Source of the DNA: a virus
Length of the DNA: 26,183 nt
Virus record (IMG/VR): IMGVR_UViG_3300027905_000375
Location: 1-26,183 of that record
Strand: one strand, 5' to 3'
Numbering within the stretch: position 1 is the stretch's first letter; each line of letters opens with the position of its first letter. This document shows, piece by piece, positions 4,170 to 26,177 of the stretch. The notes under the pieces are model-generated. The model saw only the letters and a program-made list of their open reading frames with translations. It made no database searches and was not told where the DNA came from. A program made the translations under genes and the position numbers.

Positions 4170-6179
4170 CTAGACCGTGGTGTCGACCTGCACGGTGCAG
4201 TTCACGGCACCGGCCCCGGCCACCGCGGACTTCGCCGACAGCGACATCGTCTGCCCGTCGGTGAACACCACGTCGCCGGTCGCGTCCGCTTCGGTCTGCC
4301 CCGCCACGATGGTGACGGTGAGGGCGGTGTTGACGCCGTTTTGACGCAGCGTGAAGGTGTTGTCCTTGTCGGCAGCCACCGTGAACTGTGCGATGATCCG
4401 GCGCGCCGTCCGCCCCTTGACGAGCTTGAGGAAGACCTCGGTGTTGGTGGGGGTCACTCCCCATGGCGCCAGGTAGACGGCACTTCCCGTTTCCGGGAGT
4501 GCCGCGCACCCGAAGATGAAGGGGCCGAGCCCGGCGTGCGTGTCGACGTAGTTCTTCGATGCGGCACCCTGAGCGGTCGCGGGGTCGGCCACGTTGAGGA
4601 TCGATTGGTTGGCGTCCACCGCCCCGTTGGAGCCCGCGAGGGAACCGTCGGTCTTGATCCGCCAGGTCGCCGCCCCGGCGTTCGGGGAGAAGAAGAGTTG
4701 CGCCGGCCCGTGCAGCTCCAACGCATTCGCCGCCACGCCCCCGCTGTCGAGGGACAGGCCGGCCTGTACCGTACCATCCCCGGTGGCGTTGAGGAGCAGC
4801 TCCGCGCGCGTCGCGGCCAGGGCGTCGGGGGTGTTGAGGTTCAGGACCGAGGCAAAGATGCCGAGACCGAGCCGCTGGGTCTTGAGCACCATCTGCCCGA
4901 CCACCCCGAGGGCGCCGTCGAAGTAGAGGTCCGCCCGGTGCGTGTGCCCGGCGCCGTCCCCGTCGAGCGCCGTGTAGCTCGGCTTCACGTGCGCCGCCGC
5001 CCCGGTGAAGTCGGGGTTGAGCGTCATGGACAGGTGGGCGCCCACGTGCCCGTCGATCCCCACGGAGAAGGTGACGTTGCCGAGGAGGTCGAGCGCGTCG
5101 AGCAGGTCCCCGGTCTGCGTGTACGTCCCGTTCCCGACCAGCGTGAGGGTCGCGGCGACCCCACTGGTGTCCTGGCTGAGGATCGATAGGAGCCCGCCGG
5201 TGTCCTCGTAGACCTGGGTGGTGTGGTCGGCGTGTGCCTTCCAGAAGGTGGCGACGCCCCCGAAGTGGGGGTTGTCGGCGCCTGCGCCGCTGAACCCGTA
5301 GGCCCCGCCGCCCGTGAACATCACGTCGAACGTGCCGCCCCCGCCGTCCACACTCGTGATGATGCCGAGGGGAACCGCGATGGCCCCCGACCCTGAACTG
5401 TGGGTCGGGATGTTGGTGAGCTTGCCGCCGGGGCCGAGGAAGATCGGCTGGGACTGCGCGAACGGCCAACCCGGCAGCGCGGCACCCGGAATCGCGTAGA
5501 CCGGGCCGACCAGCCGGATGTAGCAAAGCTCCCCGGCGTTGGCCGTGAGGGCCCCGTCACTGACCCTGGCAATCATCAGCCCCTGGACCTGGCCGAACTG
5601 GCCCCCGTTGAAGTCCGTGGGCTCCCAGGTCTGGATCCGCTCCTGCCCCGGGAGACCCACCTTGAGGGTGTCGTTACCGCCGGTCGGGTAGGCCACGTCT
5701 CCGAAGGTCAGCGTCGAGGCGGGCCCCACCTCCCCGGTGACCACGGGGCCGTCGGCGAACATCTGCTCCAGCCTCGCCAGCCAGCCCTTCGCCCCCGCGG
5801 CCGGCGCCTGCGCGCCCACGGCCGCGGCCCAGCCGCGCGTCGACGAGTCCTCGACGGTCTCGCCGGCCGCCGGGATGCGCTCCCGGGTCTTGAGGCTCCG
5901 GATGCCGACGATCGCCGTGTCGGAGGTCTCGGTCGGCAGCGTCTGGTTGACCGTGAGGCGGAGCCGGGTCGTACCCTCTTTGCGTGGTGTATACGTGGGG
6001 TTGTGGATGTTGGTCGCCGAGAGGTTGTCAGTAGTGCCTGGGGGCTGGTCTAGAATCTCCCACAGCCACGAAACGACACCTGCGTCGTTCTGGTTTGTGA
6101 GCTGGACGAGGTCATCAATGGGAAGGTCGTCGTTGCTTCCAGGTACGGCGTTGATTGTGATCTTGGCTACCGGGGGCAT
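4170..6179 (-). CDS. Tail fibre / receptor-binding structural protein (669 aa)
   Basis: The N-terminal ~90 residues look like a PKD/Ig-like beta-sandwich (VSWLWEILDQPPGTT, then NPTYTPRKEGTTRLRLTVN). The rest is long, beta-rich and Gly/Thr/Asn-rich with few charges, as in fibre shafts. It includes a TAQGAASKNYVDTH segment of the type common in fibre proteins before a C-terminal beta domain ending in VNCTVQVDTTV. The likely role is host recognition at the baseplate. The ATG at 6179 has GAGGAGGT upstream and lies inside the last codons of the GIY-YIG gene. The first ~200 nt look AT-richer than the rest of the gene, which may reflect co-conversion with the neighbouring homing endonuclease. Confidence 0.75.
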   Translation of the reverse strand: MPPVAKITINAVPGSNDDLPIDDLVQLTNQNDAGVVSWLWEILDQPPGTTDNLSATNIHNPTYTPRKEGTTRLRLTVNQTLPTETSDTAIVGIRSLKTRERIPAAGETVEDSSTRGWAAAVGAQAPAAGAKGWLARLEQMFADGPVVTGEVGPASTLTFGDVAYPTGGNDTLKVGLPGQERIQTWEPTDFNGGQFGQVQGLMIARVSDGALTANAGELCYIRLVGPVYAIPGAALPGWPFAQSQPIFLGPGGKLTNIPTHSSGSGAIAVPLGIITSVDGGGGTFDVMFTGGGAYGFSGAGADNPHFGGVATFWKAHADHTTQVYEDTGGLLSILSQDTSGVAATLTLVGNGTYTQTGDLLDALDLLGNVTFSVGIDGHVGAHLSMTLNPDFTGAAAHVKPSYTALDGDGAGHTHRADLYFDGALGVVGQMVLKTQRLGLGIFASVLNLNTPDALAATRAELLLNATGDGTVQAGLSLDSGGVAANALELHGPAQLFFSPNAGAATWRIKTDGSLAGSNGAVDANQSILNVADPATAQGAASKNYVDTHAGLGPFIFGCAALPETGSAVYLAPWGVTPTNTEVFLKLVKGRTARRIIAQFTVAADKDNTFTLRQNGVNTALTVTIVAGQTEADATGDVVFTDGQTMSLSAKSAVAGAGAVNCTVQVDTTV

Positions 6180-6943
6180 GCTACCTCCTCGTACTTCAAC
6201 ACGTGCCCCGCCGCGGTCTTGGACACGCCTCGCAGGTGTCGTGAAATCGCCTGTTTGCTTACCCCGTACGCAACCGCCGCCTCCCTGAGTGTGTAGTACC
6301 GATTCCCTTCCTCATCGTAGTAAGGGCGCAGTCCGGCCCGACGAGCTTGCGCGCGTCTGGCCTCTGGATCCGTGAATCGTTCCGTTTGGAACACGGACAT
6401 TTTGCGGCGCGATTCATCCGTCGCGCCCTGCTGGAGATACCCGAGTGCGACCGCCCGCTCCTCCGTAGTCTTGGCCTTCCATCGTTGCCGGGCAAACTCG
6501 GCTATTCGGCGCCGCCCATCGGGGGAAGGTGGGGTCCGCGCGTGGCTCGACAACCTCCGTTCACGAGTGGCAGGGTCGGCCCAGGATAGCTGTGTGGCCA
6601 ACGACATCTTTGCCCGCGATTCCGGAGAATGATTGTGTCCTACTTGGCCCCCGTCCGAATGGTTGGTGAGGTCGGGGTCGAGGTCACGATAGGCCGCGAT
6701 CCATTTCCGTTCGGCGGTATCAAGCGCTGTGTCATCGTTCCCCTGTACCACTTCCAGCACAAGACCGATCGGCGCATGACCCAGGGACCGTAACCACCGC
6801 GCAGAATGGGTAGAGGTGCCCCGGCGCGAATCTGCGATGTGGAGCGCAATGCGCTTCGTCAGGCGCAAGTGGGTCTGCCCCACGTACCTCACCCGCCCCG
6901 TGCAAGGGTCGATCAGGGCATAGATGAGGGCTTGCGGCGGCAT
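6167..6943 (-). CDS. GIY-YIG homing endonuclease (freestanding)
   Basis: The 258-aa protein has an N-terminal GIY-YIG nuclease domain. IYALIDPCTGRVRYVGQT carries the two signature strands (LIY and YVG forms), an Arg-containing helix (LTKRIALHI) follows, and a Glu in AERKWIAAY is the probable metal-binding residue. The middle holds basic NUMOD-like repeats (SPESRAKMS, DESRRKMS). The C-terminus is a helix-turn-helix/IENR1-type DNA-binding module (YYTLREAAVAYGVSKQAISR). Such enzymes cut a specific site in a sequence lacking the gene and are copied in by repair. There are no signs of an intron: it stands alone between two fibre genes, with AGGAGG before ATG 6943 and a 13-nt overlap with the next gene. 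It looks less GC-rich than its neighbours, consistent with transfer. Confidence 0.85.
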   Translation of the reverse strand: MPPQALIYALIDPCTGRVRYVGQTHLRLTKRIALHIADSRRGTSTHSARWLRSLGHAPIGLVLEVVQGNDDTALDTAERKWIAAYRDLDPDLTNHSDGGQVGHNHSPESRAKMSLATQLSWADPATRERRLSSHARTPPSPDGRRRIAEFARQRWKAKTTEERAVALGYLQQGATDESRRKMSVFQTERFTDPEARRAQARRAGLRPYYDEEGNRYYTLREAAVAYGVSKQAISRHLRGVSKTAAGHVLKYEEVACPR

Positions 6944-9387: not shown

Positions 9388-10557
9388 CTAGGACGGGGGG
9401 ATCGCCGGGTTGACCAGGTTGAGGGCCGTGCGGATCACCTGGAGCGGCCCGGCCGGCACCACATCGCCGAGCGGGCTGATCAGCTCGTCCCCGGTGAAGA
9501 CGAGCCCGGGCACGCCGCGCAGGGTCCCCAGCGCCGTGTTGGCGACCCAGGTGGACCCCGGGGGTAGGGCGTTGGTGTACTCCACGATCGCGGCCTGCGC
9601 GCGCAGCGCCGTCGCCACCGGGTCGGCGCCCGTGGCGAAGTGCAGGCCGAGCTGCACCGACAGCACCGCCACGACCGCCACGGTTACGGGCACGTAGATG
9701 CCGGCGCCGCGGTACTCGTCCAGCGCCTGCGACACCGCCACGGCCAGCGCCTGTGCCTGTGCCTGGTAGGCTACCGGCGTGGGTGTGTAGGTCATCAGAT
9801 CCGGCGTGAAGGCGTCGGCCACGACCAGCTCGACGACGCCGGACGGACGGCCGTTCGGGTCGAGCGCCTCGATCACGGAGGCCGTGACGACGCCCGGAAC
9901 CGCCAGGGCGCCCTGCACGAGCGAGGACAGCGTGGCGCGCCGCACCGTCGTGAAGAACTGGCGCCCGCGCGCGCGGAACGCCGCGTCGGTCTCCTCGTCG
10001 GTCGCCCCCGCCGACGCCAACGCATTGGTCGTGAGGAGGCCGGCCGGCGCCCCCGAGATCGTCGAGACGATGTTGCTGAGGGTACCGGCCTTGACCTGCT
10101 GGCCCGATCCGGTCAGCACCGACCGCGCCGTAACGTCCAGTGACGAGTCTCCGGCGGGGAAGGGCAGGTCCACGACGGTCGCGTACTTGACCCCATCGGG
10201 CGTCTGGACCTGCGTGCCCGCCGGGATGTCGAAGGCGCCGGCGGCCGGCGCGGGCAGCGAGAACGTCTGCGTGACCAGGCCGGCACCCGCGGGCACGCGC
10301 ACGAGCCCGAACAGGTCGAACATCCGGCGATCGAGCAGCGCGCCCGATGCAGACGTCAGGTACGCGCCGGCCGCCACGTTCAGGAGCTGGAGGACCACCT
10401 GGTCGGCCGCCGCGCACGCCGCCGCCAGCATGGCGTTAGCGTCGGCGCCAGGACGCTCCACGGCATCGCGCGAGAGCTTGGCCTGTAGGACCAGCACCTG
10501 GTCGCGCGCCACCCGGAACAGATCGCCGTAGCTCGGAAAATCACTCACCACATTCAC
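9388..10557 (-). CDS. Baseplate J-like wedge protein (first copy)
   Basis: About 389 aa, with the classical baseplate J layout. An N-terminal helical region is followed by a beta domain (FDIPAGTQVQTPDGVKYAT, then AGTLSNIVSTISGAPAGLLT). Next is the conserved GATDEETDAAFRARGRQFF and RRATLSSLVQGALAVPGVV region, and finally a helical/beta C-terminal part (GIYVPVTVAVVAVLSVQLGL). It forms the baseplate wedge around the hub. The start is uncertain. The frame is open to 10614, but the upstream gp25 gene ends at 10574, and three GTG codons at 10557, 10551 and 10548 follow. I give the longest; GTG 10548 has the best-spaced GGTGA. Confidence 0.83.
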   Translation of the reverse strand: MNVVSDFPSYGDLFRVARDQVLVLQAKLSRDAVERPGADANAMLAAACAAADQVVLQLLNVAAGAYLTSASGALLDRRMFDLFGLVRVPAGAGLVTQTFSLPAPAAGAFDIPAGTQVQTPDGVKYATVVDLPFPAGDSSLDVTARSVLTGSGQQVKAGTLSNIVSTISGAPAGLLTTNALASAGATDEETDAAFRARGRQFFTTVRRATLSSLVQGALAVPGVVTASVIEALDPNGRPSGVVELVVADAFTPDLMTYTPTPVAYQAQAQALAVAVSQALDEYRGAGIYVPVTVAVVAVLSVQLGLHFATGADPVATALRAQAAIVEYTNALPPGSTWVANTALGTLRGVPGLVFTGDELISPLGDVVPAGPLQVIRTALNLVNPAIPPS

Positions 10558-10573
10558 CAGAGTTTGTGTCCAT

Positions 10574-10975
10574 CTAGAACCTCGTGCCCCCCAACACCAG
10601 GGGGATCTGAGCACCGACCGTCGTGCCCAGGCGCAGCCGCGCCCGGAACGTGATTGTAACGGATCCGGTCGCGGGGCTCGTGGTGATCGCTACGTCCACG
10701 GACTCGACCTCCGGCTCCAGCAGGATCTGCTGGGCGATCTGCTTCTTGAGCGTGGCGCGGTCGCTGGTCTTGAGCAGCCCCTTGGGCTTGAGGCCGAAGC
10801 CGTAGTCGGGGAGGTGGAAGAACTCCCCGGGCCGGGTCGTGAGACGCCGGAGGATCAACTTCTTCACCAGCGCGGCGCCCGTGTCGGTCGCGTAGTCCCC
10901 GCCGGCGGCGATCTGGAGGGTGCCCCCTACGACACTGCCGGAGGGCGCCGGGCAGTTGGCGAGGTCGCGCCCCAT
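10574..10975 (-). CDS. gp25/gpW-like baseplate wedge protein
   Basis: The 133-aa product has the size and pattern of the gp25-like (lysozyme-related fold) baseplate subunit. DYATDTGAALVKKLILRRLT precedes the conserved PGEFFHLPDYGFGL. Then come a basic helix (TLKKQIAQQILLEPEVESV) and a terminal beta hairpin (VTITFRARLRLG). In contractile tails this subunit sits at the junction of the wedge and the first sheath ring and starts sheath assembly. The ATG at 10975 overlaps the TGA of the preceding gene (TGATG). The frame extends far upstream, but that extension is shadow. Confidence 0.85.
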   Translation of the reverse strand: MGRDLANCPAPSGSVVGGTLQIAAGGDYATDTGAALVKKLILRRLTTRPGEFFHLPDYGFGLKPKGLLKTSDRATLKKQIAQQILLEPEVESVDVAITTSPATGSVTITFRARLRLGTTVGAQIPLVLGGTRF

Positions 10976-11412
10976 CAGCCTAGCCCCCGGCTCGCCAGCG
11001 CGGCTGCCGGCGTCGACACCTGGTCGTACGCGGCCCCCGGGCACTCCGCCACGGAAGGCGGCAGGATCGCCCCCCCGCCGGCGTCCAGCAGCGCCCCGGC
11101 GTCGACCTTGACCACGATGGCGAACTGCGGCAGCGGCAGCAGGAAGGTCAGGTCCCAAGCGGTCCCGCCGTCCGAGGCGGTCTGCAAGACCGTCAGGACC
11201 GCGTCGGTATCCAGACGGGTGACCACCCAGGTCTCCGGGTTGAGCGCGTCCCCCACGCCGTAGGGCGACGCCGCCAGCGGCGCCGTGGAGAGGATCACGC
11301 GGATCGTCCGGTTCGACACCGCGTAGGCGCCGGCCACGTAGAGCGCTGCGCCGCCCCCGCCGCCCCAACCGCCGAGTCCCCACGGCCCGCCGCCGCCCCA
11401 TGCGCCGCTCAC
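10975..11412 (-). CDS. Small baseplate-module protein with glycine/tryptophan-rich N-terminus
   Basis: The 145-aa product begins with a Gly/Trp-rich tail (SGAWGGGGPWGLGGWGGGGG), then a beta-sandwich-like region (SNRTIRVILSTAPLAASPYG, ETWVVTRLDTDAVLTVLQTA) and a C-terminal hydrophilic part. The start is GTG 11412, overlapping the TGA of the spike gene (GTGA). The stop overlaps the gp25 ATG. Proteins of this size with a similar 'DALNPETW' strand region sit between gpV-type spike and gp25 genes in related phages, probably as a baseplate adaptor; the exact role is not known to me. The Gly/Trp-rich head resembles a flexible anchoring peptide. Confidence 0.7.
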   Translation of the reverse strand: MSGAWGGGGPWGLGGWGGGGGAALYVAGAYAVSNRTIRVILSTAPLAASPYGVGDALNPETWVVTRLDTDAVLTVLQTASDGGTAWDLTFLLPLPQFAIVVKVDAGALLDAGGGAILPPSVAECPGAAYDQVSTPAAALASRGLG

Positions 11413-12182
11413 TTGATCCCCCGGATGGTGTCGGACAGGTAGTCGCCCGCGCTGCTCTCGAACGCTGCGATGAAGCCTTCGATCGCGAGCGCGATCGGCG
11501 CCGCCGACGCGGGCGTTACCCCCGGTAGCCCCCCGAGTGCGATACCAGCCGTCACCACGGCGGCCGCTGCCACCGGGGCGAGCCCGACGAATCCCGGATC
11601 GACCCCGGATGCCTGGAGTGCAGAACCGGCAGCCGCCAAGGCGGTCGCGAGGAGCCCCCACTGCGTCTGAAGATCGCCGTTGAGCGTGGCCTCGGCCGCC
11701 CGGTATGTCGTGCCCAGCAAGTACTGCTCGGCCGCGTTCTCCGCGCCGAGCTGCACCTTCGGCGCGTTGAGCGCGATCATGCCCGCGCCGGACGCGACCA
11801 GCCGAAGGTTGCGGCCGTCGCGCACGCGCGTCACGTAGTCCTCGGAGTGGGACACGGCCTCCGGGGGCGGCAGGTCCGACGGGGACCAGAACACGCCGAC
11901 GATGACGAGCCCGTGGGACGGTTCGCCGGACGGCGCCTCCACCAGCACCTCGGCGCCGACCTCGATGGGCCCGTAGGTGCCGTAACCCGACCCCGCGTAC
12001 CCGGCCGGCATGCGGGCGCGCTGCGGATCGCCGGAGGGCATGAGCGTCACGTCGGCGAACACGCCCTCCGCCGGGTCCACGACGATCTTCTCGACGGCCG
12101 CCAGGCTCGACCAGAACTTCTGGTTGACGCCGAGCGCCGCGGCGATCCTGTTCACGTCGGGCGTGGTTCCGAGGCGCCTCAT
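11409..12182 (-). CDS. gpV-like baseplate spike protein
   Basis: The 257-aa protein has an N-terminal OB-fold domain like those of gpV/gp5-type central spikes: IVVDPAEGVFADVTLMPSGD, GSGYGTYGPIEVGAEVLVEA and GLVIVGVFW. A short beta-helix-like transition follows (GRNLRLVASGAGMIALNAPK, VQLGAENAAEQYLLGTTYRA). The C-terminal part is Ala/Gly-rich and helical. The spike is the membrane-puncturing tip threaded through the hub. The ATG at 12182 overlaps the hub stop (ATGA). The usual PAAR-tip gene is not seen immediately downstream; the neighbouring small Gly-rich protein or a gene outside the window might provide the tip. Confidence 0.78.
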   Translation of the reverse strand: MRRLGTTPDVNRIAAALGVNQKFWSSLAAVEKIVVDPAEGVFADVTLMPSGDPQRARMPAGYAGSGYGTYGPIEVGAEVLVEAPSGEPSHGLVIVGVFWSPSDLPPPEAVSHSEDYVTRVRDGRNLRLVASGAGMIALNAPKVQLGAENAAEQYLLGTTYRAAEATLNGDLQTQWGLLATALAAAGSALQASGVDPGFVGLAPVAAAAVVTAGIALGGLPGVTPASAAPIALAIEGFIAAFESSAGDYLSDTIRGIK

Positions 12183-14203
12183 CCGCCGCCCCCAGGGAAG
12201 ACGGGGTTGCCGCCAATCGTGAAGGTCGTGGGCGGGGTGGCCCCGAGCTTGGAAAGGTCGAGCCCGGGCTGTCCGGTGGGCGCCGCGGGAGGCGGGGCCG
12301 TGGGGGGCGGCGCCTGGTGGGGCGGGTTGGCCGGGCCCACGTGCGGCACGGCCTTGGTGACCGGCACGGCCGTGTTGGGCCCGATCGCCTGGGCCATCGA
12401 CGCCGGGTTGTATCGGGCCTCCACGTAGTTGGCGTAATCGAAGGCGATGGACATGCCGGTCTTCGCCGACCACGTGAACCGCGCGGTCTGCACGCGGAAG
12501 GTCTGGACGTTCTGCGGCACGCCGTTTCGCGCCGTCGCCACGATCACGCGCGCCAGGTTCTCATCGCCGCCGAGCGCCGCGGCGATTGCCTTGATCTCCT
12601 CCTCGGGCGCCCGCCGCGCGTGGTCCGTCAGTTCGGAGACCAGCGGGGACTTCGCCGACAGGTGACGCGTGTCCACCAGGATGGTCACGGGATCGCCGGG
12701 CTTGAGCCGGAGGAGGTCCGGGTCGCTGTTGTCGCCACCGAAGGACGCGCAGTTCTTGGTCTCGCAGGTCCCCTGGATGTCGCCGATGCGCCCCAGCTCC
12801 TCGAAGACCGACTGCGCGATCTGGAGCAGGGTCGCGGGGTTGCGCACGCCCGGCACCGGGATCCGCAAGACGTTGGCCGCCGACGAATCGCCGGAAGGCG
12901 CCACCGCCGTCGTCGAGGCGGTGTCTTCGGCGGATCCCGCCGTGGGGTCCGCCTTCGGCCACCGCGCCGTGATGATCTTCTTGGCGCCCCGTGCCGGCGA
13001 AGACGTGTCGACGCCGATTGCCTCGATGGCCGGCACCGTCACGCCCGTCAGCTTCCGGTTCATCTTGAAATTCTTGAGATTGTTGCCGTAGATCATCGCC
13101 CGGAAGGAAATCGGCGAGGTCCCGCTGTCGAGCTGCACGGCGCGCCGGAGCCCGTTCTTGAACGGCGTGGGGATTCGCGGGTCGATCCCGGCGTCCTTCA
13201 CGACGTCGTAGATGCTGCGCACCGGACGGATGTTGAGCGTGAATCCCTCGTAGTAGGGGATGGCGCCGACGAGGTAGCAGAAGTGCGTGACGACGTCCCA
13301 CAGCTTCTGCTTGCCGGACTCCCCGGACGGCGGCGCCGATGGGTCCCCGCCGTCCGCGCCGCGCCCCACGCGGCACACGTCGTCGAGCCCCAGGCACGTC
13401 GGGATCCCGTCCGGCCAGTCATCCGGGTTCACGCGCACGTTGCAGAGCGCGTAGAAGGGGTGCAGCCCGAGGATCTGCCGCACCACGTCGTCGATGCCCT
13501 CGTCCAGCTTGAGGCCTTCGAGCTGCCCGGGGTAGAGCGGCGTGTCGAGCAGATATCCGCGGTAGTCCCGGCCCTCCAGCGTCACCTCCGACTTGTCGCT
13601 TCCGTACTCGACCGACACCTCGTCGACGAAGCCGGCGATCCGCAGGGTGTCGGGGCGCGGCCGCAACGTCGACCGCCGCCCCTGACCGGCCGGCGGCAAC
13701 GTGGTAACGCCCGTGCCGAAGTCCCCGGGGTCGATGCAGTCGGTGTGCACCTCGACGCCGATCGCGCGGAAGGCCCGCGGGTCGATCGGCAGGTCCCGGA
13801 AGTCCAACGTCAGGGAGAACTTGCCAGCCTGGCGGAAACCCGGCAGCTCCACGGTCGCGGCCTTCGGGATCACCCCCACGACCTGGGAGATCCGGTCGGC
13901 CGCGCCCGAGAGCGCCGCCGGCTTGAGCGACACCGGCGCACCCGACAGCGCCTGCTTGAGGACGTTGCCCACCGCCGTGGCCGCGCCCCCGAGGTTCTTC
14001 ACGATCTGGTCGGGGGCGAGCGGCGACGGCGCGGCGAAGTCGAGGAAGGCTTCGTCGAAGCGGATCGCCAGCATCACCGAACAGGCCGGGTAGTAGACCT
14101 GTGCGCCGGTGAGTAGCGGGTTGGTCCGGCCGCCCAGCGCCGCCGAAACACGGTCGAGCGCCTGCGCCGTCTTGCTGGTGCCGATGTCGCCGATCGCGGC
14201 CAT
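12179..14203 (-). CDS. gpD-like baseplate hub protein (late control D / gp27 fold)
   Basis: The 674-aa protein resembles phage late-control-D/gp27/gp44 hub proteins. A first beta domain has a GFVDEVSVEYGSDKSEVTLE-type strand and a RDYRGYLLDT loop. A helical segment follows (LWDVVTHFCYLVGAIPYYEG), then a second beta domain with LLRLKPGDPVTILVDT and a C-terminal FTWSAKTGMSIAFDYANYVE strand. The last ~50 residues are Pro-rich and probably disordered. The hub trimer joins the tail tube to the spike. The start ATG 14203 directly abuts the stop of the LysM protein, and the gene ends overlapping the spike start, matching the usual hub-spike order. Confidence 0.8.
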   Translation of the reverse strand: MAAIGDIGTSKTAQALDRVSAALGGRTNPLLTGAQVYYPACSVMLAIRFDEAFLDFAAPSPLAPDQIVKNLGGAATAVGNVLKQALSGAPVSLKPAALSGAADRISQVVGVIPKAATVELPGFRQAGKFSLTLDFRDLPIDPRAFRAIGVEVHTDCIDPGDFGTGVTTLPPAGQGRRSTLRPRPDTLRIAGFVDEVSVEYGSDKSEVTLEGRDYRGYLLDTPLYPGQLEGLKLDEGIDDVVRQILGLHPFYALCNVRVNPDDWPDGIPTCLGLDDVCRVGRGADGGDPSAPPSGESGKQKLWDVVTHFCYLVGAIPYYEGFTLNIRPVRSIYDVVKDAGIDPRIPTPFKNGLRRAVQLDSGTSPISFRAMIYGNNLKNFKMNRKLTGVTVPAIEAIGVDTSSPARGAKKIITARWPKADPTAGSAEDTASTTAVAPSGDSSAANVLRIPVPGVRNPATLLQIAQSVFEELGRIGDIQGTCETKNCASFGGDNSDPDLLRLKPGDPVTILVDTRHLSAKSPLVSELTDHARRAPEEEIKAIAAALGGDENLARVIVATARNGVPQNVQTFRVQTARFTWSAKTGMSIAFDYANYVEARYNPASMAQAIGPNTAVPVTKAVPHVGPANPPHQAPPPTAPPPAAPTGQPGLDLSKLGATPPTTFTIGGNPVFPGGGG

Positions 14204-15346
14204 CTACGAGGCCCTCACCGACACGCCGCTCGTGAGCGCCGGGATGTAGACGATCTGCCCGACGTCGAGCGAGGACGACGCCAACCCGTTGAAGACCAGG
14301 ATGTCACGCCAGTGGTCGGGCACGCCGTAGTACAGGCTGGAGAGCCCCCGCAGGTCGTCACCGGCGCGCGCCACGTAGACGGCGAGCAGCGGGCTGGCAT
14401 CCGACTGCTGCTGCACGTCGCTGGCGTTCTGCGCGGCAAACCACTGCATCTGCCGGGCGCTGTCGATCGTGGTCCGCTGGTAGAGCGCCGACGCCAGGGT
14501 CTGCCCGAGGGTCGGCTGCGCGCCCGGCACCAGGTCGAACAGCGCCATGACCGTGACGGCCAGAGAGTCGAGCCCGTCGATCACCTGGCCGGCCAACCCC
14601 TTGACGATCAGCAGCGACGAGACGGCCGATCCCGCGATGTCCGGCAGCGTGTAGGTCTGGTCGGCCAACAGCGACACGGACGACGACATCGCCGCGGCCT
14701 GCTGCTGGAGGCTCGCCACAGTGCCGGCCAGCGATCCGGATACCCCGGGGTCCAGCGGCGTCGGCGGCGCCTGGACGGTGTTGGTCATGTCGTCTACGCG
14801 CGCGCCCAACTTGCTGTTCAGGGAAGCCCAGTCCACCCCGTTGACCAGCGGGGGCGTCGCCGGGTCCCCCTGGTTGATCCAGTCGAATTCCATCTCCCAG
14901 CCAAGATCCCGGACCGACCCGTAGTCCTTGAGGGTCTTGGACTTGAACTTCGTCATGATGCCGCGGCGCAGGTACGGGCCCCACTGCACCTCCACGAGCT
15001 GCCCCTTGCGCCGGAAGTCGTCCGCCACCTCCGCCAGCGACACGGCGTCGGTCAGGGCGTTGCCGTCCAGCGTGGCCGGCGCCGGCGCCGTGGGGTCGGT
15101 GTTGCCGAGGAACCGATCCTTCCAGATGCCGTTGAACGCCGTCTCCTTCTCTTCGGGCCCGAAGACCTGCATGGTCGCCGTGGGGTTGCCCGGGTAGAGG
15201 GTCTTGTCGGTCCGCTGCTCGCCGGACCACTCGATGTCCCGGTACGGCAGCGCGCGGCCTTCCAGGCGCAGCACCCGCTGGTCCCCGGTCAGCTCCGTGA
15301 TGGTGAGGGGGAACTGGTCGTCGTTGAAGATGTGACTCGGCGTCAT
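14204..15346 (-). CDS. LysM-containing baseplate protein (gp53-like)
   Basis: The 380-aa protein carries a C-terminal LysM-like motif (about residues 325-372; AGDDLRGLSSLYYGVPDHWR, DILVFNGLASSSLDVGQIVY). The N-terminal ~180 residues are beta-rich (ITELTGDQRVLRLEGRALPY, LVEVQWGPYLRRGIMTKFKS), followed by a helical Ala/Ser-rich linker. A LysM-bearing protein just downstream of the tape measure and upstream of the hub is characteristic of contractile-tailed phages. It is placed at the tape measure-hub junction in gp53-type baseplates. The ATG overlaps the tape-measure stop (ATGA). Confidence 0.8.
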   Translation of the reverse strand: MTPSHIFNDDQFPLTITELTGDQRVLRLEGRALPYRDIEWSGEQRTDKTLYPGNPTATMQVFGPEEKETAFNGIWKDRFLGNTDPTAPAPATLDGNALTDAVSLAEVADDFRRKGQLVEVQWGPYLRRGIMTKFKSKTLKDYGSVRDLGWEMEFDWINQGDPATPPLVNGVDWASLNSKLGARVDDMTNTVQAPPTPLDPGVSGSLAGTVASLQQQAAAMSSSVSLLADQTYTLPDIAGSAVSSLLIVKGLAGQVIDGLDSLAVTVMALFDLVPGAQPTLGQTLASALYQRTTIDSARQMQWFAAQNASDVQQQSDASPLLAVYVARAGDDLRGLSSLYYGVPDHWRDILVFNGLASSSLDVGQIVYIPALTSGVSVRAS

Positions 15347-16902
15347 TTTACTGAAAAAGTCGGGCTAAAGGTGGACTGAACCGGGCGGTCGCCGAGCGAC
15401 GCCAGCGCCTCGGTGGACGATACGGCGATGCGCTCCGGGTCGAAGCCCTCGGCGAAGTTGAGGTCCAGGGCGACGTGGACGTTGATCGGCGGGGGCTCCT
15501 CCGGCTCCTCCGGGGCCTTGTCCTCGTCGGACTGGTTGAAGTCCGGCACGGTGAGGGCCCCGGTCACGGGGTTGACGTCGAACTGTGCGGTCTGCGCGGC
15601 CAACGTGCTGCTCACGCCGCCCATGGACTGCCCGCCGGCCGTGTGGCCCTGCGTCATGAGCGTGGGGAACCCGAGTTCGTCGGTCGTCGGGACGTAACTG
15701 CCGGCGATCGGCATGGAGATCCCCGACATCATGCGTTGCTTGGTAGGGTCCCCCTTGAGGGCATCCAGGGCCTTCGGGATCAGGTAGAAGGCGGTGGCCG
15801 CCACGCCCAGGCCCAGGATCACCGGCCCAAGCGCCGCAGCGAAGCTTCCTACCGCGTCCATCGCGCCTTCCATGGCGGACGTTCCGTCCAGCGCCTGCTT
15901 CCCGAAGGACCCCACGGCGCCGGCGGCCGCGCGCGCGCCGCCGGCCAGGGCGGATACGGCACCGGCCGCCGCCTTGGCCTCGCCGGCGCCGCCGATCATC
16001 CGGGCGAACCCGGCGATCCCGGAGACCGCCCCGGTCACGGTGGTCAACGCCTTGGCGCCCACCAGCACGGCGCCGATGGCTTCCACGGAGACGCCGATCG
16101 CGTGGATGTGCTCGGAGATGAAGGCGAAGACCGACTTGGCCGTCGACATCCAGCCATCGAGGTGTGCCTTCACGTAGCCCATGGCCTGAATGACGAGGGG
16201 CAGTAGCCCGCTCTCCAACTTGGCGATGGCCGCCGTGAACGACGCGCCCACCTGGCGGCTCAAGTTCTGCGCCTTCTCGAAGTTGGCGAGGTCCCCGGCG
16301 CCCAGTACGCCGCCGGCCATCGCGGCTTTGATGGCTTCGGGTCCCTGCTTGAGCAGGCGCATGAGGTCGGCGGCCTGGCCCCCGCGGATCGACATGGCCT
16401 GCATCAGCTCGCCGATCCCGAGCTTCCCCTTCTGCGCCAGGCCGGCGAGCTGCTCCAGCGTGGCGCCCGGGCCCTTGGTCAGGTCGACGCCGAGTTGCTT
16501 GAGGATGTTGCCGCCCCCGCGACCCGCCTTGCCGACCGACTCCTCCATGCGGGTGGCGGCGCGCGACATCGACAGCAGGATGCGCTCGGCCTCGCTTCCC
16601 TCGATGCCGACGCCCTGGAAGGCCTGCATGAGGCCGCTGGCGTGGCGCGCCGACAGCCCCGTGACCTCCGAGATGGTCCGCACCGACCCCATGAACTCGT
16701 TGGCCCCGCGGATCAGCCCCGGGAACGAGAAGGCCGCGCCGATCAGCCCGGCGGCGCCGGCTACCTGGAGGATCCGGGTGCCGAGGCCCGACAGCGACCC
16801 GACCAACCTCTTGGCGGCGCCGGCGATGCGGTCGATCCCGCCGGAGGCTTCGTCGTCGTTGATCTCGAAACGCTCCTCGATGACCACGCTCTCGTCGGCC
16901 AT
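15343..16902 (-). CDS. Tail tape measure protein
   Basis: The 519-aa protein is largely helical, Ala/Gly-rich and amphipathic. It has hydrophobic segments near residues 45-65 (LQVAGAAGLIGAAFSFPGLI) and in the middle (AIGVSVEAIGAVLVGAKALT and AALGPVILGLGVAATAFYLI), and a Pro/Glu-rich hydrophilic C-terminus. Composition, position after the frameshifted chaperone and before the LysM/hub genes, and length all fit a tape measure. At about 0.15 nm per residue, the family rule predicts a tail of roughly 78 nm. It acts as the ruler for tail tube length and is probably ejected during infection. It starts at ATG 16902, eight bases from the end of the chaperone extension. Confidence 0.83.
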   Translation of the reverse strand: MADESVVIEERFEINDDEASGGIDRIAGAAKRLVGSLSGLGTRILQVAGAAGLIGAAFSFPGLIRGANEFMGSVRTISEVTGLSARHASGLMQAFQGVGIEGSEAERILLSMSRAATRMEESVGKAGRGGGNILKQLGVDLTKGPGATLEQLAGLAQKGKLGIGELMQAMSIRGGQAADLMRLLKQGPEAIKAAMAGGVLGAGDLANFEKAQNLSRQVGASFTAAIAKLESGLLPLVIQAMGYVKAHLDGWMSTAKSVFAFISEHIHAIGVSVEAIGAVLVGAKALTTVTGAVSGIAGFARMIGGAGEAKAAAGAVSALAGGARAAAGAVGSFGKQALDGTSAMEGAMDAVGSFAAALGPVILGLGVAATAFYLIPKALDALKGDPTKQRMMSGISMPIAGSYVPTTDELGFPTLMTQGHTAGGQSMGGVSSTLAAQTAQFDVNPVTGALTVPDFNQSDEDKAPEEPEEPPPINVHVALDLNFAEGFDPERIAVSSTEALASLGDRPVQSTFSPTFSVK

Positions 16903-19300: not shown

Positions 19301-20149
19301 CTACTGCGGCGGCGTGTTGGTACTCATCCCCGGCAAGGTATCGCGCTTGAGAGGCGCGCGCAAGAGAGGCATGTTCGCCTGGTCCGGGGTCTTTGCTCCC
19401 TTCCGGCTGTTGCAGGATCTGCACGCAGGCACAATGTTCTCGATGTCGTGGGGGCCGTGTTGCTTGAGCGGGATGACGTGGTCCAGAGTGAGGCGCATCG
19501 GCCGATCCCCGCAGTATGCACACTGATGATCAAACAACTCCAGCACCAGTTTCCACTCGGCACGGGTAAACGCACCTTTGGCCCCACGCAACCGGGCGCG
19601 GCGCTGATGCGCGTCCGCCTTCATACGGCTAGGGTCTCGCGCGTATTCAGCCTGGGCGCGGGCATTGGCGCGCCTTTTGGCTGCTGGCGTCCGCCATTTG
19701 GCAAGGATCTGTTCTCGGTTGGCTGCGAAGTACGCACGGGCGCGCCTCCGAGCGGCTTCCTGTTGTGCTGGGGGCCGGGGTCGCCCGTCTCGTTCTCGTG
19801 CTTCCTCCGGGTGCTGCTCACGCCACCGCCGGGCCCCGGCAGCCTTGCCCGCCGCCGGACGGCCACGCTGTTCTGCCGCTTCACACTCTCGACAGCGCGC
19901 TCGTAGGTGCCGGACACCCCCGCGAGTGCGCGCCCCGAACGCCCCTCTCGGCAAGGTACGGCCGCACCCGTTACAGGGCTTCTCATCAGGCGCGATGTAA
20001 GGCAGCACCTTGACTCCGAGGCGGTGCGCGCGCACCCGTACGGCCTTTGGGGTCCTGGCGAGTGCGCCCGCGATCTTCTCCCCGGAAAGTGGATAGTCTC
20101 GCCGGATCAGATCATCATCTGTAGGCGTCCAAAGACGACCCCGTGGCAT
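19301..20149 (-). CDS. HNH homing endonuclease with N-terminal helix-turn-helix (freestanding)
   Basis: The 282-aa protein starts at MPRGRLWTPTDDDL with a SANT/GcrA-like helix-turn-helix (residues about 7-46; ALARTPKAVRVRAHRLGV). A CNGC...CREC zinc knuckle follows, then a long Arg-rich linker. The C-terminal HNH nuclease is CAYCGDRPMRLTLDHVIPLK, with HDIENIVPACRSCNSRKG providing the second Cys pair and the catalytic Asp-His and Asn. It is an HNH nicking or homing endonuclease, inserted as an independent gene between the tail sheath and the glycine-rich gene. The in-frame extension to 20224 overlaps the sheath gene and is rejected. No strong ribosome binding site is seen. Confidence 0.83.
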   Translation of the reverse strand: MPRGRLWTPTDDDLIRRDYPLSGEKIAGALARTPKAVRVRAHRLGVKVLPYIAPDEKPCNGCGRTLPRGAFGARTRGGVRHLRARCRECEAAEQRGRPAAGKAAGARRWREQHPEEARERDGRPRPPAQQEAARRRARAYFAANREQILAKWRTPAAKRRANARAQAEYARDPSRMKADAHQRRARLRGAKGAFTRAEWKLVLELFDHQCAYCGDRPMRLTLDHVIPLKQHGPHDIENIVPACRSCNSRKGAKTPDQANMPLLRAPLKRDTLPGMSTNTPPQ

Positions 20150-20174
20150 GCCGCCAGTATAGTAACGATGTGCC

Positions 20175-22169
20175 CTATTGGGGAGGGGTGTTCGAAATGA
20201 CCACGGTCGGGCCGACGCTCGCAAAGATAGTAATGTCGTTGCCCTCGAAGAGCGTCTGGACGTTGAGGCCGACGATGAAGATGCCCTGCGCCTCCAGCGC
20301 CGTGGTGTTGAGCTTGAGGTTCAGGTCGTAGCCCTGGATGCGCTGCAACGTCGGGTTGTCGGTGCTGAGCAGCTCCTCCAAGAAGCTGATGCCGGTCGTG
20401 AGGATGCCGTCCTTCCACTCCTCGGTGACCGGTTGCTTGACGAAGATCTGCCAGCCCTGCACGAGCGTCTGAGTGATGTAGTCGTCCATGCGGCGGCGTG
20501 AGATCGTCTTCTGGCCGGCCACCAGCGACGTCGTGATGCCCGACTGGAAGACCATGCCGACGTTCTTCTGGAGCTTCGGCGCGCACACGCCATTGGCCCG
20601 GAGGTTGATGTAGTCGGACATCTGGAGGCCGGAGACGCCTTTCTGGAGCGCGATGAACGGGGCCGTCAGGTTGGTGACGGCCTCATCCTCCTGGCCGGGG
20701 TTCCGCTCGGGCGGCAGCATCGACAGGATCGACGCCATCATGCCGTCGGACGACACGTCGATCACGCCGGTGAGCGACGGCAGCGGGCCGGCGGCCAACG
20801 GCGTGGACACGCCGTCCAATTCCGGGATGAAGGTCTGCACACCCGGCCAGCAGTAGAACACCGACTCGTCCCGGTTGGCGCCCACGCCCGGGTCCGCCCC
20901 GGCCGTCGCGTTGGCGACGGTCTGGACGTGAAGGTCCGGCGAGATCAGGCCCACACGCGGCAGGCCCTGCGCGCGCGCGGCGACCACGTGGGTCTTGATG
21001 GCCGTCCGGTTGTGCGCGGACTTTCGCGCGGCCCACACGATGTTGACATCGGCGGCAGGGTCATCCTCGGTGAGGAGCGCGCCGATCGCCGCGTCGTAGA
21101 GGGTGTCGAACGCCGAGGAGTAGGCGACGTTCGCGCCCTGCACGGCGTTCGTGTAGTGGATCGCGGCGGACGGGTGGCACGCGATCGACAGGCCCGACAG
21201 CGGGTCCCAGGTCGTGGCCGTGGCGGCCGGCGCCGCGACGGTCGGGGGGATCACGGTGCCCTGCGGGATGTCCCCGTCGGCGCCGGCGCCCGCCGTGACT
21301 GTGGAGGTCGGACGCGCCGGCACCGTGTAGCCGGTGGTCGAGGCGAAGTTGTGGTTGCCCCCAGTGTCCGCGGCGGCCGCGGGGTGGACGCGGTAGGCGC
21401 GCGCGGCTGCCGATCCGTTGAAGTTCGTCCCGTCGAGCTTCTCCAGCACCAGCACGGTGTCGGACGTGACGGCCTCGACCCGGTAGGTGCCGGCGTCCGC
21501 GTCGGTCCCGTAGATGCCGACCACCGCGATGTCGCCGACGGCCACGGGCGCTGCGCCGCTGACGAAGTGTGCGGCGGCGTCGGTGAGCGTCTGCGTCGCC
21601 GCCGCGCCCCCGTTCGAGATCGTGGCGCCGGTTCCCGTCGCGTACGCCGGATCCGCCGTGAAGGCGATGGGCCCGGCGTTCCGCAGGATGTTGGCGCCCC
21701 CAGAGAACTGTGTGCCGGGCTGCACGAGCGCGGCCTGCATGGGCACCACGGGGATCGGGTGCGTGTCGTCGACGTTCCCGGGCAGCACCCGGAAGCCCCG
21801 GATCGCCTTGCCCGAGGCGATGTTGACGCCGGCCGCGACCAGGCGCGAGTACGTCTTGTTGCGGATCTCGCCGATGCCGTTGCCGCCGCTGTTGCCCCAC
21901 TCGCCGATCGTGGGATCCAGCGCGCCCATGAGTCGCGCGATGTCGGAAGGCGTATCGGCCTCGACGGGGCGGCACTTGGTCGTCACGGTCCCGGTGGTGT
22001 CGACCGCCACCGCGTAGGTGCAGTCCGCGAACTCCCCGACGATCGCCGCCACTCCCGTACCCACGCCGGTGAGGGGGCCCGGCGGCACGAGATCCACGAC
22101 GTTGATGCCTTCGATGGCGGCGAGGACGTCAGCCCCGGGATCTTGAGGGAAGCGGCGATTGAAGCTCAA
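20175..22169 (-). CDS. Tail sheath protein
   Basis: The 664-aa protein has the layout of contractile tail sheaths. The N-terminal domain has a VVDLVPPGPLTGVGTGVAAI type strand and an AVVGEF-like segment (IVGEFADC). Conserved central and C-terminal regions include IVWAARKSAHNRTAIKTHVV, RVGLISPDLHV, FIALQKGVSGLQMSDYINLR and SRRRMDDYITQTLVQGWQIF, and it ends in a beta strand pair. A Gly/Ala-rich, beta-like insertion (about residues 155-305) is extra relative to a minimal sheath and may decorate the outside. The start is TTG 22169 with AGGAGG six bases away. The sheath contracts to drive the tube into the host. Confidence 0.86.
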   Translation of the reverse strand: MSFNRRFPQDPGADVLAAIEGINVVDLVPPGPLTGVGTGVAAIVGEFADCTYAVAVDTTGTVTTKCRPVEADTPSDIARLMGALDPTIGEWGNSGGNGIGEIRNKTYSRLVAAGVNIASGKAIRGFRVLPGNVDDTHPIPVVPMQAALVQPGTQFSGGANILRNAGPIAFTADPAYATGTGATISNGGAAATQTLTDAAAHFVSGAAPVAVGDIAVVGIYGTDADAGTYRVEAVTSDTVLVLEKLDGTNFNGSAAARAYRVHPAAAADTGGNHNFASTTGYTVPARPTSTVTAGAGADGDIPQGTVIPPTVAAPAATATTWDPLSGLSIACHPSAAIHYTNAVQGANVAYSSAFDTLYDAAIGALLTEDDPAADVNIVWAARKSAHNRTAIKTHVVAARAQGLPRVGLISPDLHVQTVANATAGADPGVGANRDESVFYCWPGVQTFIPELDGVSTPLAAGPLPSLTGVIDVSSDGMMASILSMLPPERNPGQEDEAVTNLTAPFIALQKGVSGLQMSDYINLRANGVCAPKLQKNVGMVFQSGITTSLVAGQKTISRRRMDDYITQTLVQGWQIFVKQPVTEEWKDGILTTGISFLEELLSTDNPTLQRIQGYDLNLKLNTTALEAQGIFIVGLNVQTLFEGNDITIFASVGPTVVISNTPPQ

Positions 22170-24436: not shown

Positions 24437-24781
24437 TTACTTCACGATGAGCGGGTCGATCTCCTCGTGCTCCAGGCCGGCCCGGAACAGCCCGGCCAGC
24501 GCGTCGGCGCCGTAGTGCTGCTCGCTCAGGATCTTGCCCTCCCGGAAGAGAGTCATGTGCCCCGCGTGCGACATCGTGCGGTCCTTCTTCACGCGGTAGC
24601 GCCGAAACGTCACGGGCGCGGGCGGCGGTGGGGTGGCCTGGTCCGGGTCCGGCGCGATCTTCGGCGCGGGCTTCGCGCTGGGCGCCGCGGCCTTGCGCGC
24701 CTGCGTGGGCGTCTTGCCCTCGGGCGTCGGGGCGTTGCCGAGCTTCGCGGCTTCGACTGGATCCTGCGGTTCCGGCGGCAT
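24437..24781 (-). CDS. Small phage protein with Pro/Ala-rich N-terminus
   Basis: The 114-aa product has a disordered Pro/Ala/Lys-rich first half and a compact C-terminal part (FRRYRVKKDRTMSHAGHMTL, FREGKILSEQHYGADALAGL) of about 58 residues. I do not know a function. It is the first protein gene of the minus operon, directly downstream of the structured RNA region. The ATG at 24781 follows GAGGAGAGGG. Similar small proteins often sit near head or capsid genes, but capsid genes are not in this window. Confidence 0.6.
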   Translation of the reverse strand: MPPEPQDPVEAAKLGNAPTPEGKTPTQARKAAAPSAKPAPKIAPDPDQATPPPPAPVTFRRYRVKKDRTMSHAGHMTLFREGKILSEQHYGADALAGLFRAGLEHEEIDPLIVK

Positions 24782-24825
24782 GGTGCGGTCCCTCTCCTCT
24801 GGCGTGGCGGCGGTTAGGCGACAGC

Positions 24826-24916
24826 GCCGCGCGGCTCTTCACAGATCGCAGGCCCGTAACCGACCTGTTCCCCGGTCGTCCGGTAGTGAGCCCGCAACAC
24901 ACGAGAGCCGCGCGGC
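24826..24916 (-). repeat. 13-bp inverted repeat closing the 3' domain of the structured RNA
   Basis: GCCGCGCGGCTCT at 24916-24904 pairs perfectly with AGAGCCGCGCGGC at 24838-24826 (minus strand). Inside it, TTGCGGGC (24897-24890) pairs with GCCTGCGA (24853-24846) using two G-U pairs. CCG (24883-24881) pairs with CGG (24856-24854), and CGACC (24878-24874) with GGTCG (24865-24861), over an 8-nt GGGGAACA loop. Each half of the outer arm is itself partly palindromic, so local foldback is an alternative. Confidence 0.7.
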
Positions 24917-25360
24917 AGACGCGCCGGGAGAACGCCGTGAAGCGGCCTCCCGGCAAACGGCCCGTGCGGACGTTGTGGACCCGTGAGGGTCCGCGTACCC
25001 GCATGGCTGCCTGGTGCGCCCGGAGGCGCACAAACGGACCGCGCAAGACCAAGGGACCGAAGTCCCAAGACCCCGCCGGCACCCGCAGGGCAGAGCCCCG
25101 CATCGCCGGCAGGAACGCGCGACCCATGGACCGACCCGTTGGCGTAGTCGTAACGCGCGGTCACAACCCGGGTACGGTGGCACGCAGAGAATCGACGCCA
25201 GTCTATCTCACAAGGCCCGAAGGCGCGTGCGCTTATCGCCGATCCGAAGATCGGCACAAGCCGGCCGAAGCCGGCAAGAGGGTGGAACCCGCGCCCCCTA
25301 CGCAGACCGGCGGCGGAGGGGGATCCGGCCGGTCGGGCGTCCGTGGGCGCGCGCTCCATG
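24826..25360 (-). ncRNA. Large structured RNA (candidate ~535-nt phage non-coding RNA or operon leader)
   Basis: Read on the minus strand, this gene-free stretch forms a chain of independent perfect stems. GCCGGC-UUCG-GCCGGC lies at 25275-25260, GCCGAUC-UUCG-GAUCGGC at 25255-25238, and a UUCG-capped stem with a small internal loop at 25229-25209. GGGAC-UUCG-GUCCC is at 25066-25053, GUGCGCC-UCCG-GGCGCAC at 25031-25014 and GGACCC-UCAC-GGGUCC at 24992-24977. A stem within a stem (8 bp over 4 bp) is at 24954-24923, and a GCCGGC/GCCGGC stem over a 7-bp stem at 25110-25075. A 13-bp stem closes a nested 3' domain at 24916-24826. Five loops are C(UNCG)G and one is UMAC-like only on the minus strand. 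Two of the internal pairs are G-U on the minus strand but would be A-C on the plus strand. A promoter lies directly upstream. The 5' end is set by that promoter and the 3' end by the last stem, so both are estimates. It may be a stable RNA, a leader of the tail operon, or both. Confidence 0.7.
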
Positions 25361-25366
25361 GACACG

Positions 25367-25394
25367 ACCTTATCAGATCGCGGGCGCGGGTCAA
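25367..25394 (-). promoter_or_regulatory. Predicted sigma70-type promoter for the structured RNA / tail operon
   Basis: On the minus strand, TTGACC (25394-25389) is separated by 16 nt from TAAGGT (25372-25367), a TANNNT-type -10 box. Transcription would begin near 25360, immediately before the hairpin region. The promoter sits between the RNA and the divergent plus-strand gene that starts at 25421. Confidence 0.55.
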
Positions 25395-25571: not shown

Positions 25572-26177
25572 TTGATCGCTGCCCTCTATGTAGCCGAGCG
25601 CGGGTGCTACTTCGGCCTGTCCGAGGTGGACCCGTGGCCTGCCACGCGCGATGCACGGCTCTACGACGGGCCGCATCCGGTCGTGGCCCACCCGCCGTGC
25701 GAGCGATGGGGGCGGTACTGGGGTGGTGGCCCATCGGCGCGCGTCAAGCGCGTGAAGGGCGACGACGGCGGATGCTTCGCCGCTGCGCTCGCATCAGTGC
25801 GGAGATGGGGGGGCGTGCTGGAACACCCGGCCGACTCCGCGGCATGGGACGCATTCGGGCTACGGCGCCCGCCCTGCCATGGCGGATGGGTCGTTGCGGA
25901 CTGGCTTGGTGGGTGGACGTGCCGAGTCGAGCAAGGGCACTACGGGCACCGCGCGCGCAAGGGAACATGGCTCTACGCCTGTCGCGTCGGCCTGCCTTCG
26001 CTCCGGTGGGGACGGTCAGTCGCCAGCGTGAGGCTCGATGAGGGATTCCACTCAGCCGAGGAGCGACGCCGCGCCGTGCGCACCGGCGTGTGCCAACGTC
26101 TAAGCGGGTCGCAGCGAGCTGCGACCCCGGTTCCATTCCGCGACCTACTTCTGTCCATCGCGCGGTCCGCTACCTAG
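25572..26177 (+). CDS. DNA methyltransferase-like protein with C5-MTase PPC motif
   Basis: The 201-aa product starts at TTG 25572 with GAGGA close upstream. HPVVAHPPCERWGRYW contains the Pro-Pro-Cys (Cys43) of the C5 cytosine methyltransferase nucleophile loop. EVDPWPATRDARLYDG before it resembles the acidic SAM-binding strand. Downstream are VLEHPADSAAWDAFGL, GHYGHRARKGTWLYA and a C-terminal SGSQRAATPVPFRDLL, like motifs VIII-X. However, the usual FxGxG SAM-binding motif I is not recognisable (ALYVAERGCYFG at that place), and at ~200 aa it is much shorter than standard Dcm-type enzymes. It may be a minimal or inactive methyltransferase, or a different base-modifying enzyme. It diverges from the tail operon. 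Confidence 0.65.
   Translation: MIAALYVAERGCYFGLSEVDPWPATRDARLYDGPHPVVAHPPCERWGRYWGGGPSARVKRVKGDDGGCFAAALASVRRWGGVLEHPADSAAWDAFGLRRPPCHGGWVVADWLGGWTCRVEQGHYGHRARKGTWLYACRVGLPSLRWGRSVASVRLDEGFHSAEERRRAVRTGVCQRLSGSQRAATPVPFRDLLLSIARSAT

Follow-up and report, generated by a model that had tools for sequence, protein, structure and literature searches.

A new family of large structured RNAs in the capsid-tail block of uncultured phages, with a probable divergent member in a 26-kb virus record

The window analyzed here is an entire virus record of 26,183 bases with a GC content of 70%. Most of its genes lie on the minus strand and belong to a contractile-tail phage. A gene-free interval at 24826–25360 raises the question of what this stretch encodes. 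An earlier note, made from the letters of the DNA, proposed a new large structured phage RNA, read from the minus strand and placed at the head of the tail operon. The proposal of such an RNA is supported by the lack of an Rfam match and by compensatory changes in relatives.

The gene-free interval of the window

In the minus direction, the interval lies downstream of a divergent plus-strand gene (25572–26177) and upstream of a small gene, with no capsid gene before it. The downstream landmarks are as follows.

24437–24781, minus strand: small conserved gene of 114 aa with the Shine-Dalgarno sequence AGGAGAGG, the constant downstream neighbor of the RNA
20175–22169: tail sheath gene, whose homolog in locus L009 matches the tail-sheath family phrog_23
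15343–16902: tape measure gene
11409–12473: base V gene
9388–10614: baseplate J gene

The small gene is located ~2.3–2.6 kb upstream of the tail sheath gene. The placement at the head of the tail operon can be refined: the RNA directly precedes the small gene, and the RNA of relatives comes after the major capsid gene.

The small gene has 84 distinct homologs among the fetched loci, and the L140 homolog (37.5% identical) sits directly after the RNA of its own locus. The small protein is widespread in these phages; its N-terminus is disordered and rich in proline and alanine, and its C-terminus is a beta-alpha domain predicted with good confidence. A fold search gave no significant match to a known fold. 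The divergent plus-strand gene matches phrog_12600, shares 58% identity with a protein of Pseudomonas phage Persinger and is also found in a microvirus record. The tail gene block contains two HNH/homing-endonuclease-like genes (19301–20224 and 6167–6943). No tRNA was found in the window.

The minus strand of the interval (25360–24826) contains five C(UNCG)G hairpins, compared with 0.25 ± 0.49 in dinucleotide shuffles, none of 500 reaching five, and the plus strand contains none with at least four pairs. Four of the five loops are UUCG (25260–25275, 25237–25256, 25215–25224 and 25053–25066) and the fifth is UCCG (25014–25031), in agreement with the five tetraloops of the earlier note. A hairpin with a UCAC loop, also described earlier, is present at 24977–24992. 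The predicted fold of the minus strand has an energy of −315.7 kcal/mol, which none of 100 shuffles equaled (z −4.7), and z reaches −5.2 once the 3′ tail is added. Bins of 270 nt across the window have a mean z of −0.18 (sd 1.2), with the bins of the RNA among the lowest on both strands. By contrast, hairpins with a tetraloop of any sequence number nine against 7.6 ± 2.7 expected and are not enriched. The signal is therefore borne by the UNCG loops and the overall stability rather than by the number of hairpins. The stems and loops described on the minus strand are borne out by this fold and the hairpins listed below; a density beyond chance holds for the UNCG loops and the fold energy, but not for the count of hairpins.

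The codon-position GC pattern of real genes is absent from every reading frame in 24839–25360. The interval of ~535 nt thus shows no coding signal, and the RNA runs beyond 24826 to a 3′ boundary at ~24800. An Rfam search of the RNA returned nothing at the gathering threshold and two chance-level matches up to E 10; no covariance model of a group I or II intron or other Rfam ribozyme was matched, nor that of GOLLD, ROOL or any other family, in line with the earlier note, which saw no reason to assign the RNA to either of the two. The parts of the RNA, from 5′ to 3′ on the minus strand, are listed here.

25367–25394, minus strand: putative promoter-like sequence, read from the sequence, with TTGACC (25394–25389), a 16-nt spacer and TAAGGT (25372–25367)
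24800–25360, minus strand: structured RNA, ~560 nt with its 3′ tail, defined by fold z of −4.7 to −5.2, the excess of UNCG hairpins and family evidence
25283–25358, minus strand: 5′ domain, an outer stem (25345–25358/25283–25296) around a stem at 25328–25334/25305–25311, from inverted repeats and the predicted fold
25260–25275, minus strand: UUCG hairpin of 6 bp
25237–25256, minus strand: UUCG hairpin of 8 bp
25180–25230, minus strand: sub-domain with the closing pair GCACGC/GCGTGC, from the centroid fold
25215–25224, minus strand: short UUCG hairpin of only 3 pairs inside this sub-domain
25187–25209, minus strand: element GAGATAGACTGGCGTCGATTCTC inside this sub-domain, common to two relatives
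25037–25162, minus strand: middle domain, possibly closed by GACCGCGC/GCGCGGTC (25155–25162/25037–25044), predicted from inverted repeats I11 and I13
25053–25066, minus strand: UUCG hairpin within the middle domain
around 25072–25113, minus strand: predicted GCCGGC stem within the middle domain
25014–25031, minus strand: UCCG hairpin of 7 bp
24966–25004, minus strand: UCAC-loop hairpin (24977–24992) with an inner asymmetric loop, from sequence and fold, perhaps equivalent in position to the signature hairpin of the family
24923–24954, minus strand: hairpin GCCGGGAG...CTCCCGGC, inverted repeat I5
24826–24916, minus strand: 3′ domain, a perfect basal stem of 13 bp (24904–24916/24826–24838, inverted repeat I1) around a pseudoknot hairpin, laid out as in relatives
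24854–24886, minus strand: match to the family model R2 of the 3′ pseudoknot hairpin (20.2 bits, E 0.017), with the loop GGGGAACA
24800–24813, minus strand: 3′ tail CCGCCGCCACGCCA, also given as CCGCCGCCAC; the equivalent GCCNCC tail of relatives provides the 3′ strand for a long-range helix that closes this half

The promoter-like sequence ends ~9 nt ahead of the first paired base of the RNA. The pattern TTGACN-N16..18-TANNNT occurs only twice in the 26-kb window, counting both strands; a stricter sigma-70 scan did not call the sequence at 25367–25394. At the other end, the 3′ tail is present, its partner in a closing helix is not certain, and a U tract is absent.

Relatives at the capsid-tail locus

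A search with the tail sheath protein retrieved relatives of ~40% identity that are syntenic with the window. A wider sheath profile added L009 (52% GC), whose interval contains UUCG hairpins and a segment matching the window. An alignment of the capsid protein (phrog_1357, major head protein) yielded 80 capsid loci, and the 450 nt following the capsid gene have a z of −5 or lower in about 26 of them. Baseplate J as a query gave remote relatives at most, a search for one exact motif of the window found nothing, and there is no meaningful DNA similarity to isolated GenBank phages. Two of the loci (L006 and L010) leave no room for an RNA, and the related GenBank phages Kromp and phiKX1 have a 58-nt gap and no gap, respectively, after the capsid gene. 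A literature search of open-licence papers found no description of such an RNA.

About 20 of the strongly folding capsid loci share a signature hairpin of the form stem-GC-AAACCC-[hairpin]-NGGAACC-GC-stem. A scan of 2.9 million viral contigs with this motif alone returned 43 stretches, and 41 of the 41 newly fetched ones lie at the capsid-tail locus. Where the contig includes the respective genes, the stretches are 173–853 nt after the capsid gene and 2.7–4.3 kb before the sheath gene; their orientation relative to the genes is constant. Most members of the family have this signature, and 9 of 12 large contigs carry a single copy of it. Changes in its outer and inner stems are compensated: among 30 unique hairpins, 91% of cells are paired and 81 cells are changed on both sides, with a covariation score of 0.524 against 0.129 ± 0.019 for shuffled and 0.07–0.12 for slid partners. 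The AAACC/GGAACC internal loop is invariant, partly because the search pattern demanded it, and probably constitutes a tertiary-contact or ligand site. A variant signature, GGGGC-AACTTC-[hairpin]-GAATA-GCCCC, is found after the capsid gene in L028, L029 and L034, which are close relatives of L037 with the standard form.

The 3′ half of the relatives' RNA is closed by a long-range helix, in which a GGNGGC-like segment that follows the signature hairpin is paired to a GCCNCC-like tail. This helix encloses two stems, the first a long basal one, and a hairpin with a GGG loop that pairs with CCC farther upstream. The pseudoknot pairing is CCC/GGG in most members, and seven swap it for a different complementary pairing; the pairings other than CCC/GGG comprise CGCG/CGCG, CGAG/CTCG, CCGC/GCGG, CGGG/TCCG, CGAGC/GCTCG and GCCC/GGGC. 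When partners are swapped among members, own pairs score higher in both the closing helix (15.25 versus 13.24 ± 0.46, 0 of 5000) and the pseudoknot (10.95 versus 9.04 ± 0.53, 2 of 5000); the segments were chosen by eye, so the swaps gauge partner matching only. Conservation of the stems by compensatory change, which the earlier note had named as the test of its proposal, is thus seen in the signature hairpin, the pseudoknot and the closing helix. The pseudoknot supported by relatives belongs to the 3′ domain, not to the 5′ end. In 20 of 25 members, the closing helix is followed by a run of at least three T and then by the Shine-Dalgarno sequence of the small gene.

Loci fall into two groups by the distance from the capsid stop codon to the small gene, with start codons picked by a simple Shine-Dalgarno rule: ~25 at 44–224 nt, in which the RNA is missing, and ~45 at 250 nt or more, mostly 350–700 nt, which include all 26 loci with a signature hairpin. 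On the capsid tree, the signature requires 17 changes, of which at least nine are forced by well-supported branches, although a few labels, such as that of L066, may be wrong. This patchiness indicates either gain and loss of the RNA or its movement between phages. Three genes, one of them HNH-like, separate the capsid gene from the RNA in L078, where the RNA still directly precedes the small gene.

Several features of individual loci were observed in passing. The inserted endonuclease-like frame of L078 (5419–6168) is HNH-type by eye, and this locus also has a frame resembling dCTP deaminase. A similar frame, again HNH-type by eye, lies between the capsid gene and the small gene in L017 (2808–3474). 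A capsid relative (43%) lies on a Methylocystis MAG contig (L098), from a genome bin of the alphaproteobacteria, which may hint at hosts of this phage group; the signature hairpin is absent from this bin and from 385 genomes of its class, the latter in a search without a positive control. Two of the syntenic sheath relatives, L007 and L008, have 466 nt free of genes at the equivalent place, from the major capsid gene to the small gene, with a fold z of −7.4. This interval was first taken as the same RNA; because the signature hairpin is missing and the start of the small gene is covered by the last stem, it is treated as a separate or very divergent type. This second, very stable type (z −7 to −9.7) is found at L007 1480–1940, at L008 7200–7650 and after the capsid gene in L073, and in its last stem the Shine-Dalgarno region of the small gene is paired to the beginning of that gene's coding sequence.

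The window RNA very likely belongs to the new family. It shares with the family the small gene directly downstream, the excess of UNCG hairpins on the transcribed strand and a 3′ pseudoknot hairpin in a long basal stem. The model R2, built from 20 cleanly aligned rows out of 25 with the window left out, was searched against both strands of the whole window, and its best match (20.2 bits, E 0.017; next 16.0) is enclosed by the basal stem of 13 bp. The model is short, and in 419 kb of other loci it also gave a 21-bit match outside any RNA. The partner of the pseudoknot is weak in the window, CTC/GGG being the best. The segment GCCTTCGGGCCTTGTGAGATAGACTGGCGTC matches L018 with a score of 42, whereas the maximum in shuffles is 29.7 ± 2.7 and none of 100 comes as high, and the core GAGAT(A)GACTGGCGT.ATTC of this segment recurs in L023 and L140. 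A scan of viral contigs with the 5′ element found only one further relative, a near-copy of L023. The signature model R1 has no match on the minus strand of 24826–25360. Given the R2 match, the element common to L018 and L023, and the same downstream gene, we take the window RNA to be a divergent member that lost, or never had, the signature hairpin.

Mode of action and alternative readings

The reading toward which we lean is that the interval encodes a divergent member of the new family, made with the late genes and acting as a folded RNA by itself. The RNA would be transcribed late along with the capsid and tail genes; the window RNA probably has a promoter of its own immediately upstream. 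Processing or partial termination at the U-rich tract that follows the closing helix may then part it from the downstream mRNA, and it would work in late infection or virion assembly as a folded RNA and not via a protein. As judged from sequence comparison, a stand-alone mode of action appears about evenly balanced. It is favored by the patchy presence of the RNA and its independence from the capsid gene, and the gene insertions in L078, the ~25 loci without RNA, the T runs and the promoter-like sequence of the window were counted on its side. Counted against the reading are the fixed place upstream of the small gene, the lack of both a signature hairpin and a U-rich tract in the window, the weak pseudoknot partner there, and the shortness of R2 with its match outside any RNA.

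That fixed place favors a cis-acting leader: the RNA would serve as 5′ UTR to the small gene and to the head-completion/tail operon, whose translation, stability or transcription it would tune. This is a possible but less probable account. The position directly upstream of the small gene is kept even in L078, where genes separate the RNA from the capsid gene, and the occurrence of all 41 newly found copies at one locus is expected of an element acting in cis. The Shine-Dalgarno sequence of the small gene lies under a 10-bp stem in the L007/L008/L073 type. However, the same two genes occur without the RNA in ~25 relatives, the RNA far exceeds usual leaders in size and complexity, and the main type ends in a closed helix 20–100 nt before the start codon, short of the Shine-Dalgarno sequence. 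Apart from regulation in cis, the RNA, made beside the capsid gene, might take part in building the virion, as a scaffold, as packaged material or as a regulator of the assembly of the head or head-tail joint, across a large clade of uncultured contractile-tailed phages; we consider this speculative and rather doubtful.

Processive antitermination is unlikely. Here the nascent RNA would bind RNA polymerase, like HK022 put and EAR, so that transcription of the long operon downstream continues beyond a hairpin resembling a terminator behind the capsid gene. Most members indeed have a strong hairpin between the capsid gene and the RNA, in some cases with a T run after it, but the same hairpin occurs in RNA-less loci such as L067, and the window RNA has no preceding capsid gene. 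The put and EAR elements, at ~70–130 nt, are also much smaller.

An element read as DNA, such as a packaging, replication or recombination site extruding hairpins, is very improbable. Inverted repeats are symmetric in DNA, yet the UNCG loops are confined to the transcribed strand (five versus none in the window; 47 versus 1.75 expected across the family) and the orientation relative to the genes is constant. UUCG stabilizes RNA, and TTCG is no particular stabilizer of DNA (PMC2864571), so the loops on the transcribed strand argue for RNA over DNA, an argument that follows the same work. An undetected protein-coding gene is almost certainly not the explanation: although DNA of 70% GC has long open frames by chance, there is no codon-position GC signal, translated comparison of the window with family RNAs gives only three weak matches (E 0.002), which do not share a frame, and relatives show compensatory stem changes and variable hairpin lengths.

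Comparison with known structured RNAs

Bacteria and phages have few large structured RNAs, and every one of these has raised new questions. The members described here are large structured phage RNAs of about 350–650 nt with closely packed UNCG-capped hairpins; dozens of uncultured tailed phages carry them, always ahead of one small gene within the capsid-tail block. With no match in Rfam or in isolated GenBank phages, and with the evidence from relatives, we are nearly certain that they constitute a real and new RNA family. It is the family that is new, outside all known classes; the broad kind, the large phage RNA, was already known. The apparent absence from isolated GenBank phages may explain why the family was missed. 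The family raises the question of what role a half-kilobase RNA plays in phage morphogenesis, and its dozens of members, invariant internal loop, compensated pseudoknot and fixed place make it a direct target for RNA-seq, structure probing and cryo-EM.

EAR (epsC) and HK022 put resemble the RNA in that a structured RNA heads a long operon, but both are much smaller and neither is matched by the RNA in Rfam. OLE and raiA are likewise large structured bacterial RNAs; they differ in lying outside phage structural gene blocks, and again there is no Rfam match. GOLLD and ROOL are the nearest in kind. Like the RNA here, GOLLD is a large phage RNA of many hairpins whose 3′ region is more conserved and whose 5′ region is variable, with no known function (PMC12286853). 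It lies near tRNA islands and often exceeds 800 nt, whereas the present RNA spans 350–650 nt in the capsid-tail block, the window is tRNA-free, and the GOLLD covariance model is not matched. ROOL is a large phage or prophage RNA with pseudoknots and no known protein partner; it too is often near tRNA islands, and its Rfam covariance model is not matched by the RNA here. ROOL assembles as a nanocage, and recent work has shown that GOLLD, ROOL and OLE each form assemblies made of RNA alone (PMC12286853).
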